Shown here: piece after piece, positions 25,760-33,315 of the stretch | Layout of the letters: every line of letters begins with the position of its first letter | How positions within the stretch are numbered: the stretch's first letter is position 1 | NCBI GenBank assembly: GCA_029884425.1 | Contig: JAOUHV010000033.1 | Coordinates: forward strand, 1-34,316 | DNA: 34,316 nucleotides | Reading direction: 5' to 3' | DNA from: Gammaproteobacteria bacterium | Lineage (GTDB): Bacteria > Pseudomonadota > Gammaproteobacteria > S012-40 | The notes under the pieces: generated by a model | The model's database searches: none | What the model was told of the DNA's origin: nothing | Seen by the model: the letters and a program-made list of their open reading frames with translations, nothing else | Position numbers and translations under genes: made by a program

Positions 25760-26887
25760 TCACGCGGATTGATCGGAGTATCGTTCTCTGATCGCAACAA
25801 ACTCATCCAGGTGAGCCAAAAATATATCGATCAAATGGGGATCAAAATGCAGGCCCGCCCCTTCACGCAGATAGTTTATTGCATCATCAAGCGACCAAGC
25901 TTTTTTGTACGGACGCTCAGAGGTCAGGGCATCAAACACATCGGCAACAGCAACAATACGTGCAAACAATGGAATCTGCTCCGCCCGCAAACCTGCCGGA
26001 TAGCCACTGCCATCCCATTTTTCGTGATGGCACAAGGCAATTTGCCGCGCTGCCTCCAACAGCCCGGAGGCATGGCCCGACAACAGCTCTGCACCGATTT
26101 CCGGGTGTTTTTGCATAGTTTGCCACTCCGCTGGGGCCAGTTTGCCGGGCTTAAGCAGAATGGCGTCGGGAATACCTATCTTTCCCACGTCATGCATAGG
26201 ACTCGCGTTCAGAATCAAATCGCAATCGGCTTTTGACAAGCCTAGCTTTACTGCCAACAACTTCGACATTTTGCTCATACGGACAATGTGCAGACCGGTT
26301 TCGTTGTCACGATACTCAGCCGCACGTCCCAAGCGACGAATAATTTCGAGCCGGGTCTGTTCCAGTTCCTCGGTGCGCGCCCTAATTTTTTCTTCCAGGG
26401 CATCATTTTGCATTCGCACCTGATGATGCAACATGCGCACTTCCAGCATGTTGCGAATCCGATTTATCAATTCAACAACATCGAATGGTTTGTTCAAAAA
26501 ATCCCGCGCACCCGCTTGCAGTGCTCGAATTCGGGTATCTCGATCAATTTGCGCCGTTAATACCAGTACCGAAAGATAATCGCTGGTTGTCAGTGCGTTC
26601 AGTCTATCCATCACCTCAAAACCATCCATGTGCGGCATATTCAGATCCAGTAGCACCAACTCGTACGGTGACTGTTGGTAGCTATTTACCCCCTCACGCG
26701 GGTCGGTAAAGCAGCTCACGCTCGAATAGCCTTCTGAACGCAACATTTTTTCAATGATCTTCACATTGGCGGGCTGATCATCAATCACCAAAATGCGCGC
26801 ACTTTTGATATCCACAGAATCCAAGTTTGGAGCCAACGCCTTTCCCCCAGACCAACTCACGCCCAACAAACATCGTCCGATTGCCAT
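25760..26887 (-). CDS. Response regulator with HD-GYP c-di-GMP phosphodiesterase domain
   Basis: The 375-residue product has an N-terminal receiver (about 29-150) with the acidic pair D36/D37, phospho-acceptor D81 in LLDLNMPHMDG and the Lys in LNKPF. A coiled-coil linker (about 152-185) leads to an HD-GYP domain (about 185-370). The metal and signature residues are all present: HDVGKIGIPD (232-241), HPEIG (261-265) and HHEKWDGSGYP (287-297), so it should be an active c-di-GMP hydrolase. The start is likely ATG 26887; residues 1-25 are not part of the receiver, and a later start cannot be excluded. It lies 72 bases after the HhH gene and 188 bases before fliL, without a convincing terminator on either side. 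Confidence 0.93.
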   Translation of the reverse strand: MAIGRCLLGVSWSGGKALAPNLDSVDIKSARILVIDDQPANVKIIEKMLRSEGYSSVSCFTDPREGVNSYQQSPYELVLLDLNMPHMDGFEVMDRLNALTTSDYLSVLVLTAQIDRDTRIRALQAGARDFLNKPFDVVELINRIRNMLEVRMLHHQVRMQNDALEEKIRARTEELEQTRLEIIRRLGRAAEYRDNETGLHIVRMSKMSKLLAVKLGLSKADCDLILNASPMHDVGKIGIPDAILLKPGKLAPAEWQTMQKHPEIGAELLSGHASGLLEAARQIALCHHEKWDGSGYPAGLRAEQIPLFARIVAVADVFDALTSERPYKKAWSLDDAINYLREGAGLHFDPHLIDIFLAHLDEFVAIRERYSDQSA

Positions 26888-26959: not shown

Positions 26960-28840
26960 CTATAATTCCCGCCACACTCGCCAAACGACATAACGCTCGT
27001 CATCGGTTAGCGTCCGACTAATGCCCGCTTGCCACTGTTGCTGGATACTTCCCTGGAGACTGGCTCCTATCACCATTCGCTTTTCACCCTCGGCGTCCGT
27101 CGGCAAAGGATGATGCGCATTAATCCATATCCCTTGACGACGCTGCCCCAAACGCCACGTTCCTCGCCACCCACAACTGCCATCATCCGCGCAACGCAGC
27201 TGTTGTTGCCACAAGTCATCGCCTCGGCGATGCTCTAACTGCAGACTGACTGACATCAGCTCCGCGCCTTGCTCAATACCCGCGCCCAGCTTAAATTGGG
27301 GCGCAATCGCCTGCGTCACTCGTTGTGACCAGCGCTGCTTCCATAACTTTTCATTCGACGTATCATTCGCGTCCACAACCACCGCTCGCCAACTGTCTAC
27401 ATATCCACGCCACTGCACCGAGCCAATGCGCATGTCATGCTGCCACAACCAACCGATTTCGTTTCGCTGACGACTGCCCAAATATTCATCACTGGCAGCT
27501 AATCCCCGACTGTAGGGGTTTATATAGTCTTGCGCGTAATAGCGTACAGTCAGCTGTTCAAGAACATTTTCATCATGCCACGATGTCCACACTAACAGGG
27601 CTTTACCACCATTATTGCCAACGGACACTTCACCATCCAAGGCGAATTCCGACCACGATTTGGCCAAACCCAAACCCGCAACCTGGTACTGCAATGCCGA
27701 CGGAAATTTTGCTGACGGCGCAAAACGCAACTGCGGTGCAGCCAGCACAAACTGATTATTCGCCTGATAGTACACAAACCTGCCCCGCCAGTCGGTTGTG
27801 TCACCCCACAACCAAGCCATACCGGATAAGGTTTCATGCATCGCATCCCTAAGCTGAGTGTAGTACAGCGGCTGTCCCTGTTGATCCAGCACGGTGGTCG
27901 CATACCATTGACCATAGCCATCGCAGGTAAATCCCATGCTCTGACTTCCCGTCGTATGACACTCCCCCAACGCCTGCAGACGGGCAGCATCCGGACCAAA
28001 CCGCAAATCGTACTGATAGAGATCGCGCAACTGCGACGAAGCGAACAAAAAATACTGCTGCCTGACACCTAAACAGTCGGCACATTCATACTGCGCAGCT
28101 GCGCCAAACAGCATGTCATCAAACCGATATCGCCCGGTTGAAGCAACAAATGAGGCTGGAGCAGGCTCAGACCAGCCCTCTGCCGAGGTGACCGGGCGAT
28201 TGGCAAACGACAATCCCCGACCAAATGCCAAACGATAATGCCCTAACGTGTATGACCAGGGACGCTGTTCTGCCCAGAAAAAGACTGAGCGCGGTTGCAA
28301 AATATCGGATTGCGGCTTCGCCTGCCAACTTTCCAAGGCAAAGTTATAGCTGACCTTCTCGCCGGTGCGCTCCGCCCATTCGCTGCCCAGTCCCCATTGG
28401 CGTTGTCGCTGTTCGACCGCAAGCACCGTGGAAGGCGATGATTGATCGGACGCAGCAGTGCCCATCTGCCAACGAAAAAATCGCCGTCCATGATTTACCG
28501 TCACATAATCCAGCCACAACCAGTACGTGGCCAGATCGACACCAGGCAAGATAGTCAATTCACTCACACTTTTGAAGCGCCCGAGGGCCTGACGATGCGC
28601 CAAAATCTGTGATGCCAAGGTCGGTGTCATTTGCGGCAACCACAGCAGATCCGTCAACCCGGCCTGATTCAAATCCAGTGGCTGTTGCCGCCACTGCGAT
28701 AACACCCATTGCGTATACTCATCTTCATTCAGCACATCGTCAGTCACAAATGCCCAGGAGGCGACTGGCGTACAAAAAATCAAGATGAGGCAAACACAAC
28801 CAAACCTAACACCCCGATGAGTCCGCATTGGCGGCACCAT
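26960..28840 (-). CDS. Secreted helix-hairpin-helix (ComEA-like) protein with barrel-like C-terminal region
   Basis: The 626-residue product has a signal peptide (about 10-30, ending VASWA). A ComEA-like HhH region follows (about 55-112): LDLNQAGLTDLLWLPQ and FKSVSELTILPG match the NLN-A..EL..LPG pattern of DNA-binding HhH pairs. The remaining 500 residues are rich in Trp, Tyr and alternating polar/hydrophobic strands with turns, like an outer-membrane beta-barrel; several Cys pairs are present (for example C-A-D-C near 255 and C-A-D-D-G-S-C near 553). The ATG at 28840 overlaps the lipoprotein gene by 35 bases with no clear ribosome site, so translational coupling is likely; ATG 28828 is the alternative start. 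HhH-plus-barrel proteins beside LTD proteins are better known from Bacteroidetes. Function is not established. Confidence 0.7.
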   Translation of the reverse strand: MVPPMRTHRGVRFGCVCLILIFCTPVASWAFVTDDVLNEDEYTQWVLSQWRQQPLDLNQAGLTDLLWLPQMTPTLASQILAHRQALGRFKSVSELTILPGVDLATYWLWLDYVTVNHGRRFFRWQMGTAASDQSSPSTVLAVEQRQRQWGLGSEWAERTGEKVSYNFALESWQAKPQSDILQPRSVFFWAEQRPWSYTLGHYRLAFGRGLSFANRPVTSAEGWSEPAPASFVASTGRYRFDDMLFGAAAQYECADCLGVRQQYFLFASSQLRDLYQYDLRFGPDAARLQALGECHTTGSQSMGFTCDGYGQWYATTVLDQQGQPLYYTQLRDAMHETLSGMAWLWGDTTDWRGRFVYYQANNQFVLAAPQLRFAPSAKFPSALQYQVAGLGLAKSWSEFALDGEVSVGNNGGKALLVWTSWHDENVLEQLTVRYYAQDYINPYSRGLAASDEYLGSRQRNEIGWLWQHDMRIGSVQWRGYVDSWRAVVVDANDTSNEKLWKQRWSQRVTQAIAPQFKLGAGIEQGAELMSVSLQLEHRRGDDLWQQQLRCADDGSCGWRGTWRLGQRRQGIWINAHHPLPTDAEGEKRMVIGASLQGSIQQQWQAGISRTLTDDERYVVWRVWREL

Positions 28841-30956
28841 TCAATAACGCGGGCATTTTGTCAGGTACGGCACACCACGACGTACCAAGATCATTATCTG
28901 CTTGCGGTGAAATTAAACGCTGTGCCACGCCGGAGACACCTTTAGCCGCGTGAGCAGAATCAATCGACACACTCCCCTGCCATAATTGCAGTGTGCCGAC
29001 CTCACTGGAGTACATATCCAGGCCGCTGATGGTCATAGCATTAATATTGAGAGCCGCCAAATCGTTGCCATCACCGCTCAGTATCAATGGTTTGCCCGGC
29101 AACGCTTCCAAACAGTCCGCCGATAATAATTGCCAACGACGCTCACTGCCTGTCAACAAACGATGTACCACGCTCGCATCATTCAGATCTCTGGCTTCGC
29201 TGGTTGTCAGCCGTAACTGCAACCAATCACGACCATTATCAGCACCCTCCGGATTGGTTAAAATTTCGGTAATTTGCAAATCTGCGGGCATCAATTTTCG
29301 CAGCGGCTGCCATGTGCCTTGTCGCCAGCACACCTCACCACACGGATCATTCGCTGTACCCGGTGAAGATTTTCCCCACGCGGATTCCCGTCTGGCCGAA
29401 CAAAACTGCTCAGTTCGATCATTTTCAGAAACCTGATATTGCTCAAAGCTGACTCCCGACGACACATTATTGATCGCAACAGGAAGTAGCGCGTTATCAA
29501 TCTGCTGCCCCGCGCGCAATAACGATATTTCACTGACATCGTTATAGAGTTGCAATTGAGGAATGGAGATAGCCTGTTTACCCAAGCCGGGCAACGAAGC
29601 ATCCGCAGCAATGACCGCGTAACTTTGTGCCGCCAATGGCACGCACTGCTTCGCCTCGAACGTCCAACGCCGTTCATTGCCAGTCAAACTATTTTTCTGT
29701 TTTATTTCCAGCCCATTGGCCAATCTTGGCGTGGTCGAATTGACATAAATTTCCAGCCATTCCCGCCCCTGATCCGCGCCGTCCGGATTTGCAAAAACTT
29801 CACTAATCAGCAACTCGCCTTCTACCGCCGTCGGCAATCGTCGCCAGCGATAATTTGAATCCAGACAAGCGGCTTCGCAAGCATCGTTGAGCTGACCCGG
29901 TGTGGCATATTCACTGCCATCCCAGGTTATTAATCCACTTTGAGCTGCACAAACGCCGCCGGATGGCGTCAACTCAGTCACATTCAAACCATCCACGCCC
30001 TGCGATATTCCCGAAGAAAATTCGCTTGCAGCGACAAACGTTGATTGTGCCATTCCACGCAATGCCAACTGAAAAGTCACCGCTTTATTTGCTAACGCAT
30101 CCCCCGCCAGCCAGTAATCCGCAGCAATTGTGCGCAACCTGGACACATCAGACTGCACCCCGACCACTGTGTATTCTGCGGGCTGCAACCACATACAGCG
30201 CGATGACATTAATCGCCATTGCTGATCATTGGTCGAAATATGCAAACCATTTAACAATACCGGACGGGAATGCATCGACAGCAATTCAAACCATTCATTA
30301 TTGCCATCCTCACCGGAAGGATTAGCCATGATTTCGTTCAGGCGCACGCTGCCGGCAATGGCAGGCGGAACCTTAACCCATTGCTCATTATCATCCAAAC
30401 AGCGCAACGTACCGCAGGCAGGATTATCCGTCCCCGGTGTTGCCTCCCCCACCGAGGATGCTGCACACCAGGCATTGGCATCGTGATAATTCGAAGTATC
30501 TTCAAAGACGAAAGGTGAAACAATAATGCTGTCTGCCGCTGCCAGCGGTAAATCGGGAACTTGCCAGGAGAAGAAATTCGCGCCATCACAACTCATCGAC
30601 AGTCCAGTGGCACGATGCAATGGCAACGTATCCACGTGATAGTCACCAGACAACGAACTTTCGCGGGTCACCACCAACACGACTTTACCTGCAGGCACCT
30701 GCTGGGTTCCCTGCAAAATAATCGGTTCAGTTCGGCCTTCCAGAGATAACAGCAAGCGATGCAGAGACAACGATCGCGATGAAGTGTTTTTTAATTCCAG
30801 CCACTGCAAATCCGGCTGTTCGCTATCAACATGCCACTCGGAAAGCAGCAGTTCGCCCTCACGAATATCACAGGGCGTATCCAGGGGAGATTGAATGCCT
30901 TGTCCACAACCAATCAAAAACAACGCAAGCAACAAAAAAAGCCAACGGCACACCAT
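28806..30956 (-). CDS. Lipoprotein with four tandem lamin-tail-like (LTD) modules
   Basis: The start is ATG 30956, because AAGGAGG (30962-30968, minus strand) lies 5 bases upstream; a GTG further up would spoil the signal peptide. The 716-residue product has a lipobox LIGC with the lipid Cys at 17 and Gly at +2, as for outer-membrane lipoproteins. Four modules of about 175 residues follow, each opening with an LTD-like strand pattern: LLLSEWHVD...QWLELKN (about 36), VRLNEIMANPSG..NEWFELL (about 204), LLISEVFANPDG..REWLEIY (about 382) and LQITEILTNPEG..RDWLQLR (about 560). Modules close with a Cys plus [TS]PG and a second Cys. LTD domains in secreted bacterial proteins are proposed to tether polymers such as DNA or polysaccharide; that role is only inferred here. 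Confidence 0.78.
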   Translation of the reverse strand: MVCRWLFLLLALFLIGCGQGIQSPLDTPCDIREGELLLSEWHVDSEQPDLQWLELKNTSSRSLSLHRLLLSLEGRTEPIILQGTQQVPAGKVVLVVTRESSLSGDYHVDTLPLHRATGLSMSCDGANFFSWQVPDLPLAAADSIIVSPFVFEDTSNYHDANAWCAASSVGEATPGTDNPACGTLRCLDDNEQWVKVPPAIAGSVRLNEIMANPSGEDGNNEWFELLSMHSRPVLLNGLHISTNDQQWRLMSSRCMWLQPAEYTVVGVQSDVSRLRTIAADYWLAGDALANKAVTFQLALRGMAQSTFVAASEFSSGISQGVDGLNVTELTPSGGVCAAQSGLITWDGSEYATPGQLNDACEAACLDSNYRWRRLPTAVEGELLISEVFANPDGADQGREWLEIYVNSTTPRLANGLEIKQKNSLTGNERRWTFEAKQCVPLAAQSYAVIAADASLPGLGKQAISIPQLQLYNDVSEISLLRAGQQIDNALLPVAINNVSSGVSFEQYQVSENDRTEQFCSARRESAWGKSSPGTANDPCGEVCWRQGTWQPLRKLMPADLQITEILTNPEGADNGRDWLQLRLTTSEARDLNDASVVHRLLTGSERRWQLLSADCLEALPGKPLILSGDGNDLAALNINAMTISGLDMYSSEVGTLQLWQGSVSIDSAHAAKGVSGVAQRLISPQADNDLGTSWCAVPDKMPALLNGAANADSSGC

Positions 30957-30961
30957 ACCAT

Positions 30962-30968
30962 CCTCCTT
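30962..30968 (-). promoter_or_regulatory. Strong Shine-Dalgarno of the LTD lipoprotein gene
   Basis: The minus strand reads AAGGAGG, then ATGGT, then the ATG at 30956. It places the start directly before a classic lipoprotein signal peptide. Confidence 0.7.
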
Positions 30969-31086
30969 GATATCGTCAAACACCGTTTCCGATCAGCCAT
31001 CCTGGCCAATCACGCAGTACCATTATCATCAACTATCGCATAAAATGCTAGCGTGGCAATGGGCCAGCACTGTGAAGACGTCCTCT

Positions 31087-33315
31087 ATGAACTCATCGGG
31101 CACCAATGACGCTCTCCTCACCGCAGGAGATCAAAAAGAACAAGAACAAAAACAAGCATTTCACGCGCAAGTCACGCAACTATACCAAGCGGGCTACTCG
31201 GCTTTAATCGGCATGCCCGCTGCAGCGGTGGTGCTGTTCCTCGCCTTAAAAGACCAACTTCCCACCAAATACCTGGTGATCTGGCTGGCATGCATCATTG
31301 GCATTTCGGCCATGCGTGGTATCTGTCTGCACGCATTTAACATGCGTTCCCCCGATAGTAAAATTTCAACCTGGTTTTATTTCTATTGCGCCATCGAAGT
31401 TCTGTCTGGCCTGGCTTGGGGTGGCACCGGATTTTTTATTTCCTACGTGGAAATTGAACATCAGCTGCTAATCTATTTTGCTTTGATTGGCATGGTCGGG
31501 GGAGCCATCGCCCTACTTGCACCGGTTTATGCCTGCTACGTCTGTTTTTCCATTCCGGCCCTTGTCACTTTCGTAGTATTTTTGGCACAGCTACACAGTG
31601 ACGTTTACACCTATATGATCGTTCTGATTGTACTGGCCGCGCTGGTTGTTACCCACACCACTCGCACCCTGACCCGCCACATTCATCGGTCGTATGTACT
31701 CGCCTTTGAAAATGAAAATTTGACGGAGCAAACACTCAAATCCAACCAACAGTTACGCGATGAAAATACTGCACGTCATAGCTACGAGGAACAATTACGT
31801 GCATCAGAAGCACGCCTGTCGAGCATCCTGAATAATATGCAGGATACCTATTTTCGAACCAACGTCCTTGGCCAAATCATCATAGTCTCACCGTCCGTCA
31901 AAACGCTGCTGGGATACACGCCCGAAGAACTGCTCGGAACACAAATCTCCGACTTGTATGTCAACCCCAATGGTCGCGATCACATGATTCGCCTGGTTGC
32001 CGACAATAATGGACTGCTCCTCAATTACCAGTCACAACTGGTACGCAAAGATGGCCAACTGGTTTGGGTAGCTACCAATGCCCAGTATTATTTTGACAGC
32101 AACAATCAGGCACAAGGCGTTGAGGGCACAACACGCAATATTGACGATATTCAAAAATACATTCGCCAACTGGAGATTTCGCGCAAGGAATATCAAAACC
32201 TGTACGAAATTAATCAGAACATTCTGGAACACTCGCCGATTGGCATTTTGTTTATCGACAAAAACAGCCGTTTTTCTTACATCAACAGCAACATGCACGA
32301 GATACTTGGCGTACCGCCAAACACACGCCACCACATGCTGGGGCAGCGTTTCCTTGAAATTCCCAACCTAGCCAAAGCGGGCTTAAGCAGTTTTGCCCGC
32401 CAACTGCTCGACGGCCGGCGCCTCAGCATTAATATCCCGTACACCTCGGCATATGGTAAATCGACTATTCTGTCAGTTACTGGTGTTCCTCTCAGCGAAA
32501 ATGGCCAGTTTGCCGGCGCGATTGTGCTTGCCGCTGATATCACCGACAAAGTTCATCAGGAAAAACAGCTGGTCGACGCACTCAGAAAAGCGGACGATGC
32601 CAACCAAACCAAAAGTCGCTTTCTGGCCAACATCAGCCATGAATTACGCACTCCGCTCAATGCCATCATTGGTATGGCTTCGTTGCTAAAACAGTCCGAA
32701 CAATGCGCCGAACACAAAGAAAGCCTGGACATCATTCAGCATTCCGGCGAAAACCTGCTGTCATTGGTCAACACCATTTTGACCCTGACTCAATTGGAAC
32801 AAGGCAGCTATCAGTCAGAAAAAGAACTGATGAACCTATCAAGCTATCTGTTCCCTCGCTTGCGTCCATACATTGATACGGCAGAACAAAAAAATCTGGA
32901 ATTCATCATCGAAGATGATCCCGATATTCCACATTCACTGATCATCGACAAACACTGCATCGACTCAGGCATCCTGCCACTGGTTGATAATGCGGTGAAA
33001 TTCACTCGCACTGGCCACGTCAAATTAACAACTCAATTGCTGTCGCAAAATCACAAGGCAATTATTCGTTTTCGTATTGAAGACACCGGCCCTGGTATGA
33101 GTGCAGAACAAGTCGGCAAAATGTTTGATTATTTTTCGATGGCAGATGACGCATCCAATCGTCGCCACAGTGGCCTGGGATTGGGTGCCAGCATTGCCAA
33201 ACAGTTGATTGAAAATAATGGCGGCAGCATCAACGTCACTTGCGCACCCGCCAACGGCTGCGTGGTAGAAGTTACGCTACCGTTTGACTTGCCTCAGGAT
33301 AGCGTCGCGCACTAA
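31087..33315 (+). CDS. Membrane sensor histidine kinase with two PAS domains
   Basis: The start is set at ATG 31087 (742 residues). In-frame ATGs at 30895 and 31045 are possible, but the first lies inside the divergent lipoprotein gene. An N-terminal region with about six membrane helices (about 35-195) is followed by a coiled coil, PAS-1 (about 238-360) and PAS-2 (about 368-490). HisKA has FLANISHELRTPLNA, with phospho-His about 518. HATPase has NAVKFT, DTGPGM and SGLGLGASIAKQL (about 630-735). There is no receiver, so a separate partner is needed; the nearest receiver is in the HD-GYP protein at 25760-26887. A TAAAAT (31041-31046) could be a -10 element, but no good -35 is visible. Confidence 0.88.
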   Translation: MNSSGTNDALLTAGDQKEQEQKQAFHAQVTQLYQAGYSALIGMPAAAVVLFLALKDQLPTKYLVIWLACIIGISAMRGICLHAFNMRSPDSKISTWFYFYCAIEVLSGLAWGGTGFFISYVEIEHQLLIYFALIGMVGGAIALLAPVYACYVCFSIPALVTFVVFLAQLHSDVYTYMIVLIVLAALVVTHTTRTLTRHIHRSYVLAFENENLTEQTLKSNQQLRDENTARHSYEEQLRASEARLSSILNNMQDTYFRTNVLGQIIIVSPSVKTLLGYTPEELLGTQISDLYVNPNGRDHMIRLVADNNGLLLNYQSQLVRKDGQLVWVATNAQYYFDSNNQAQGVEGTTRNIDDIQKYIRQLEISRKEYQNLYEINQNILEHSPIGILFIDKNSRFSYINSNMHEILGVPPNTRHHMLGQRFLEIPNLAKAGLSSFARQLLDGRRLSINIPYTSAYGKSTILSVTGVPLSENGQFAGAIVLAADITDKVHQEKQLVDALRKADDANQTKSRFLANISHELRTPLNAIIGMASLLKQSEQCAEHKESLDIIQHSGENLLSLVNTILTLTQLEQGSYQSEKELMNLSSYLFPRLRPYIDTAEQKNLEFIIEDDPDIPHSLIIDKHCIDSGILPLVDNAVKFTRTGHVKLTTQLLSQNHKAIIRFRIEDTGPGMSAEQVGKMFDYFSMADDASNRRHSGLGLGASIAKQLIENNGGSINVTCAPANGCVVEVTLPFDLPQDSVAH

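Follow-up and report, generated by a model that had tools for sequence, protein, structure and literature searches.

Overlapping genes for a lamin-tail lipoprotein and a helix-hairpin-helix barrel protein in a gammaproteobacterial family and in Myxococcota: a possible outer-membrane route for nucleic acids

ComEA is the periplasmic helix-hairpin-helix (HhH) DNA receptor of natural transformation, ComEC is the inner-membrane channel of DNA uptake, and AlgE, the alginate exporter, is a polyanion channel. In V. cholerae, changes at G60 of the GxG motif of ComEA abolish DNA uptake (PMC3879209). ComH replaces ComEA in H. pylori, where NucT is an outer-membrane-associated PLD-type nuclease (PMC6877725), and Riemerella anatipestifer has its own non-pilus uptake proteins, one of them a separate HhH protein (PMC8459023); both serve here as precedents, with no homology claimed. 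The function of lamin-tail domains (LTD) is still unsettled and they have been proposed as membrane-directing domains (PMC6085458); secreted DNases repeatedly contain LTD and also duplicate HhH domains (PMC4486849), and proteins joining an LTD to a nuclease are known in DNA-degrading bacteria (PMC8289736; PMC6085458).

The locus considered here lies in a window (the whole stretch of DNA that was analysed) of 34,316 nucleotides from an uncultured gammaproteobacterium and encodes a multi-module LTD lipoprotein followed by an HhH-barrel protein. The latter has a signal peptide and the HHH_3 fold in common with ComEA, but ComEA is a small standalone periplasmic protein that keeps the DNA-contacting GxG hairpins, whereas the HhH-barrel protein has 626 residues with a modelled barrel, has lost GxG from its head and is coupled to an LTD lipoprotein. 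The pair resembles the PilQ channel of the type IV pilus as a proposed outer-membrane entry upstream of ComEC; PilQ is however a secretin, whereas the window barrel is a single-chain protein of AlgE type with no pilus genes at the locus. The likeness to Riemerella lies in uptake without a pilus, through a protein at the surface, another predicted to be a barrel and an HhH protein of its own, whereas HhH and barrel form one chain with an LTD partner in the window; the Riemerella families (DUF5689/DUF5017 and carboxypeptidase-regulatory-like) are set apart by annotation, not by sequence comparison (PMC8459023). H. pylori NucT is related to PLD nucleases found beside the barrel in Myxococcota, but no LTD-barrel pair is described alongside ComH and NucT in that work. 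ExeM-type extracellular nucleases (PMC6085458) also tie LTD to extracellular DNA handling, but unite LTD and nuclease in one secreted protein. Our literature search found no paper joining LTD, helix-hairpin-helix and outer membrane, or both protein names.

The gene pair and its predicted products

The LTD lipoprotein gene (28806..30956, minus strand; 716 aa, ATG at 30956 and stop at 28806, from its ORF and Pfam) is preceded by a strong ribosome site, read from the sequence as AAGGAGG-N5-ATG, and its product starts with a signal peptide and the lipobox LIGC, which places the lipid site at Cys17. The HhH-barrel gene follows on the same strand (26960..28840; 626 aa, ATG at 28840 and stop at 26960). 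The initial annotation of this DNA had placed the end of the lipoprotein gene inside the start of the HhH gene and had seen no clear ribosome site for the latter, and both observations hold: the overlap (28806..28840, minus strand) is 35 nt, or 23 nt if translation begins at Met5, the likely start of the signal peptide (28751..28828, minus strand; residues 5-30, from sequence), and a ribosome site was sought at both possible Met starts and found at neither. Because of this overlap and the lack of a ribosome site, the two genes are likely to be translationally coupled. Chance adjacency is negligible, since a profile search of the 2.9 Mb genome gives only two LTD loci.

According to sequence and Pfam, the neighbours of the pair are genes for an HD-GYP response regulator and for flagellar FliL, FliM and FliN on one side, and for a PAS histidine kinase on the other; neither nuclease nor polysaccharide-synthesis genes were seen next to the pair in the window. 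The HD-GYP gene (25760-26887, minus strand) is by sequence also near the pair in two other family genomes (G007 and G008), and fliM is near it in G000, G001 and G007, a proximity that possibly reflects shared regulation or an ancestral location. The histidine kinase ORF as listed (30895-33315, plus strand) begins inside the divergent LTD gene; the real start probably lies downstream of the listed one.

A search with the Pfam LTD and HHH_3 models matched both domains. The LTD match (PF00932, E=2.3e-20, 73.4 bits against a cut-off of 34.3) covers three of the four modules that had been proposed, and all four are present in the predicted fold. On the minus strand, modules 1 (30561..30851; residues 36-132) and 2 (30030..30347; residues 204-309) rest on the predicted fold and a genome HMM match, module 3 (29484..29813; residues 382-491) is the best Pfam match and is also seen in the predicted fold, and module 4 (28947..29279; residues 560-670) was recognised from the predicted fold. 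By Foldseek against solved lamin LTDs, the modelled repeats have the Ig-like LTD fold and correspond to the LTD of lamin A/C and B (probability 1.00, TMt up to 0.70), in models that, for the two proteins, were built on shallow alignments of 6 and 5 rows. A PDB sequence search with the LTD profile gave no match.

In the HhH-barrel protein, residues 118-519 (27284..28489, minus strand) are likely to form an outer-membrane beta-barrel of AlgE/Occ-porin type, as judged from well-modelled strands and from their alignment to AlgE (Z 16.9, 281 residues aligned, rmsd 5.2) and to Occ porins (Z 15-16). A barrel had been predicted for this protein and the model is barrel-like, with strands at about 70-88 between residues 118 and 519, but its overall confidence is low (mean pLDDT 52.9, pTM 0.49, from six sequences). 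The fold shared with AlgE and Occ-type porins (Z 15-17) goes with only 5-10% identity, and the HhH head and LTD partner are the window pair's own. The matches from PDB sequence searching cover HhH segments only.

The HhH head itself (28523..28684, minus strand; residues 53-106) has the fold (HHH_3, E=4.7e-9). The initial annotation described a DNA-type HhH head with a signal peptide; the signal peptide and the HHH_3 match stand, and the DNA-type assignment is not supported, since GxG is replaced by PQMT and PGVD in the two hairpins of the window protein and is found in the first or second hairpin of none of the 46 heads detectable among 49 barrel proteins (the family copy of G002 is without a detectable HhH). 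GxG hairpins are present in the true ComEA of the same family, and the HhH-barrel protein scores 27 bits against the NCBIfam comE model TIGR01259, far below the cut-off of 152. Because the GxG hairpins are lost, a role in docking or gating appears more likely for the head than DNA contact. At one Myxococcota locus (L120) where the barrel has neither LTD nor nuclease neighbours, a tandem HhH protein whose GIG-type loops are intact is encoded just upstream (L120:4636-5502, plus strand) and might supply a DNA-binding HhH function.

Distribution of the pair and of competence genes

The genomes studied are mostly MAGs, and 13 of them represent the uncultured gammaproteobacterial family of the window. 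Seven of these 13 carry the pair, always with the LTD gene first (in G007 the barrel gene was located by reading the locus, where it adjoins the LTD gene). In six of the seven the two genes overlap or directly adjoin, the exception being G002 with a gap of 128 nt; adjacency and order are conserved across all seven genomes. Pairwise identity between the family's pair proteins is only 17-54%, from which we conclude that the pair is old.

Samples of the class (274 genomes) and of the phylum Pseudomonadota (398 genomes) contain no further barrel, the other matches in both covering the HhH segment only; in the phylum sample these matches, the window's own copy aside, have the look of ComEA- or Tex-type proteins. 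Among named genomes, a scan matched three Gammaproteobacteria MAGs and two Myxococcales only, and 49 of 284 Myxococcota genomes match a barrel-only profile. The initial annotation regarded pairs of this kind as better known from Bacteroidetes; the nearest relatives found, in searches covering samples of Gammaproteobacteria, Pseudomonadota and Myxococcota and the named genomes, are Myxococcota. No barrel relative was present in the plasmid collection, with either query, or among viral contigs. The seven gammaproteobacterial barrels group in one deep clade (support 100/99) with long branches, the 42 Myxococcota copies falling outside it, and the suggestion that the window copy may have been transferred is not borne out, at least for a recent transfer. 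Longer frames with HhH in G009 and G012 turned out to be unrelated proteins, as is a frame of 2,583 aa in G007 (L165:3645-11396, minus strand) with several HHH_3 matches, which adjoins large genes.

Within the family, standalone ComEA and the pair are mutually exclusive: ComEA (ORFs of 93-99 aa) is encoded by none of the seven pair-bearing genomes and by four of the six pair-free ones (G003, G005, G009 and G011). In a hand calculation that ignores kinship, the Fisher probability of this distribution is 15/715 = 0.021, and 4/120 = 0.033 when counted by genus. The genes keep the order lapA-lapB-pyrF-(comEA)-next gene; comEA follows pyrF in these four genomes, and the slot is empty in all pair-bearing genomes where it could be read (G000, G001, G004, G007, G008 and G010) and also in the pair-free G006, which is without ComEA. 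The gene that comes after pyrF/comEA, present in all 11 genomes read (L172 and the other pyrF loci, L168-L178), begins with a conserved region, MGLLG(G/T). ComEC is encoded by 11 of the 13 genomes, including all seven with the pair. PilQ was absent, above the cut-off, from the near-complete G000, G001 and G008, all pair-bearing, the two best secretin matches of G000 looking from their neighbours like GspD and MshL, and is present in the pair-bearing G002, G004 and G007. We also considered that the barrel might always replace ComEA and rejected this for Myxococcota: barrel-bearing genomes there keep short standalone HhH proteins, and the exclusion is therefore particular to the window's family.

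Nuclease neighbours in Myxococcota and the proposed function

We read 42 Myxococcota loci (L064 and L065 included) on the barrel's strand, over stretches of up to about 14 kb; gene starts in these high-GC loci are approximate. An LTD gene is present in 36, a nuclease gene of SNase or PLD type in 33 and both in 31; SNase genes occur in 26 loci and PLD genes in nine, two loci having both kinds. Of these assignments, all 26 for SNase, the seven PLD-only ones and all 36 for LTD are borne out by Pfam. Four loci (L114, which ends at a contig end, L120, L126 and L131) have neither. Typical orders are LTD-SNase-barrel, LTD-barrel, PLD-barrel-LTD and barrel-LTD-SNase, with gene overlaps of 7-12 nt (9-12 nt in the LTD-barrel order), and the LTD or nuclease gene often overlaps that of the barrel. 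The SNase proteins align to thermonuclease and the PLD proteins to Nuc and NucT, and also to mitochondrial cardiolipin hydrolases. Two loci encode a large protein directly downstream of the barrel, one carrying two PLD domains as well as a weak match to LTD (L100:2015-5284, minus strand), the other with a PLD profile match by HMM only (L101:1-2640, minus strand).

The window's genome encodes, apart from the pair's contig, an SNase-LTD fusion of 426 aa (contig C68, L179:2750-4030, minus strand), whose homologue at the Myxococcota loci is the second, longer SNase protein (31% identity, E=7e-22). By this homology the genome holds the same set of parts, and the fusion is likely to be a further component.

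The initial proposal of an outer-membrane complex for extracellular DNA gains support from the SNase and PLD neighbours in Myxococcota and from the absence of comEA in genomes with the pair, transport itself being what we infer. Our tentative reading, to which we give slightly less than an even chance, is that the pair is an outer-membrane nucleic-acid import complex that stands in for ComEA in the window's family. The lipid-anchored LTD array would capture or scaffold DNA at the outer membrane and would contact the barrel, which would act as the pore through which DNA passes inwards, with its periplasmic head docking or gating; at many Myxococcota loci a lipoprotein nuclease (SNase or PLD) would cut DNA at the pore, and ComEC, to which the pair may be coupled, would take it onward. 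In the window's family the pair would replace ComEA and, in three near-complete genomes including the window's, PilQ too. More doubtful is the fuller version, a new nucleic-acid importer of Myxococcota and one gammaproteobacterial family that would be the DNA counterpart of the SusCD glycan importers. It would combine an AlgE-like pore bearing an HhH head with an LTD lipoprotein and, optionally, a lipoprotein nuclease of SNase or PLD type, and would replace PilQ and ComEA in natural transformation in the gammaproteobacterial family. Gene order, domains, the barrel-like model, conservation, nuclease neighbours and the exclusion between comEA and the pair speak for import, as do the likeness of the barrel to the polyanion channel AlgE, the ComEC of all seven pair-bearing genomes and the three of these in which PilQ was not found; against it stand the standalone HhH proteins of barrel-bearing Myxococcota, the absence of GxG from 46 heads, the PilQ kept by G002, G004 and G007, the absence of ComEA from G006, the missing nuclease gene in the window, the low confidence of the barrel model and an exclusion drawn from 13 related genomes.

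The SNase and PLD nucleases of the Myxococcota loci, together with the SNase-LTD protein of the window's genome and the LTD and nuclease proteins of DNA-degrading bacteria (PMC8289736; PMC6085458), would also fit nutrient scavenging, in which extracellular DNA is captured by the complex and cut by the nuclease, and oligonucleotides reach the periplasm through the barrel to serve as a source of phosphate, nitrogen and nucleosides, with no link to transformation. We consider this rather unlikely: it leaves unexplained both why comEA is gone from its slot in the window's family and why the gammaproteobacterial pair has no nuclease gene beside it. Because the comEA slot is empty, natural transformation appears favoured over scavenging in the window's family. 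That the barrel instead exports or anchors a polymer other than nucleic acid, such as an acidic polysaccharide, with the LTD as surface tether and the HhH head as protein dock, is suggested by AlgE as the best fold match, by the lost DNA-contact glycines of the head and by the membrane-directing role proposed for LTD (PMC6085458), but is improbable given the recurrence in Myxococcota of nuclease neighbours from two unrelated families and the lack of polysaccharide-synthesis genes seen beside the window pair. A role as an envelope barrier, destroying the DNA of incoming phages or plasmids in the periplasm, is very improbable, since the PADLOC model SNc+LTD that the Myxococcota SNase matches (E=4.6e-17) is only a candidate, no PADLOC model matches either protein of the window pair and no nuclease gene lies beside it.

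How DNA gets across the outer membrane where no type IV pilus takes part is an open matter for most bacteria. If the import reading is true, the pair would name a pore and its partners in two lineages, would give the bacterial lamin-tail lipoproteins a function and would explain how a genome can keep ComEC while being without ComEA and PilQ.
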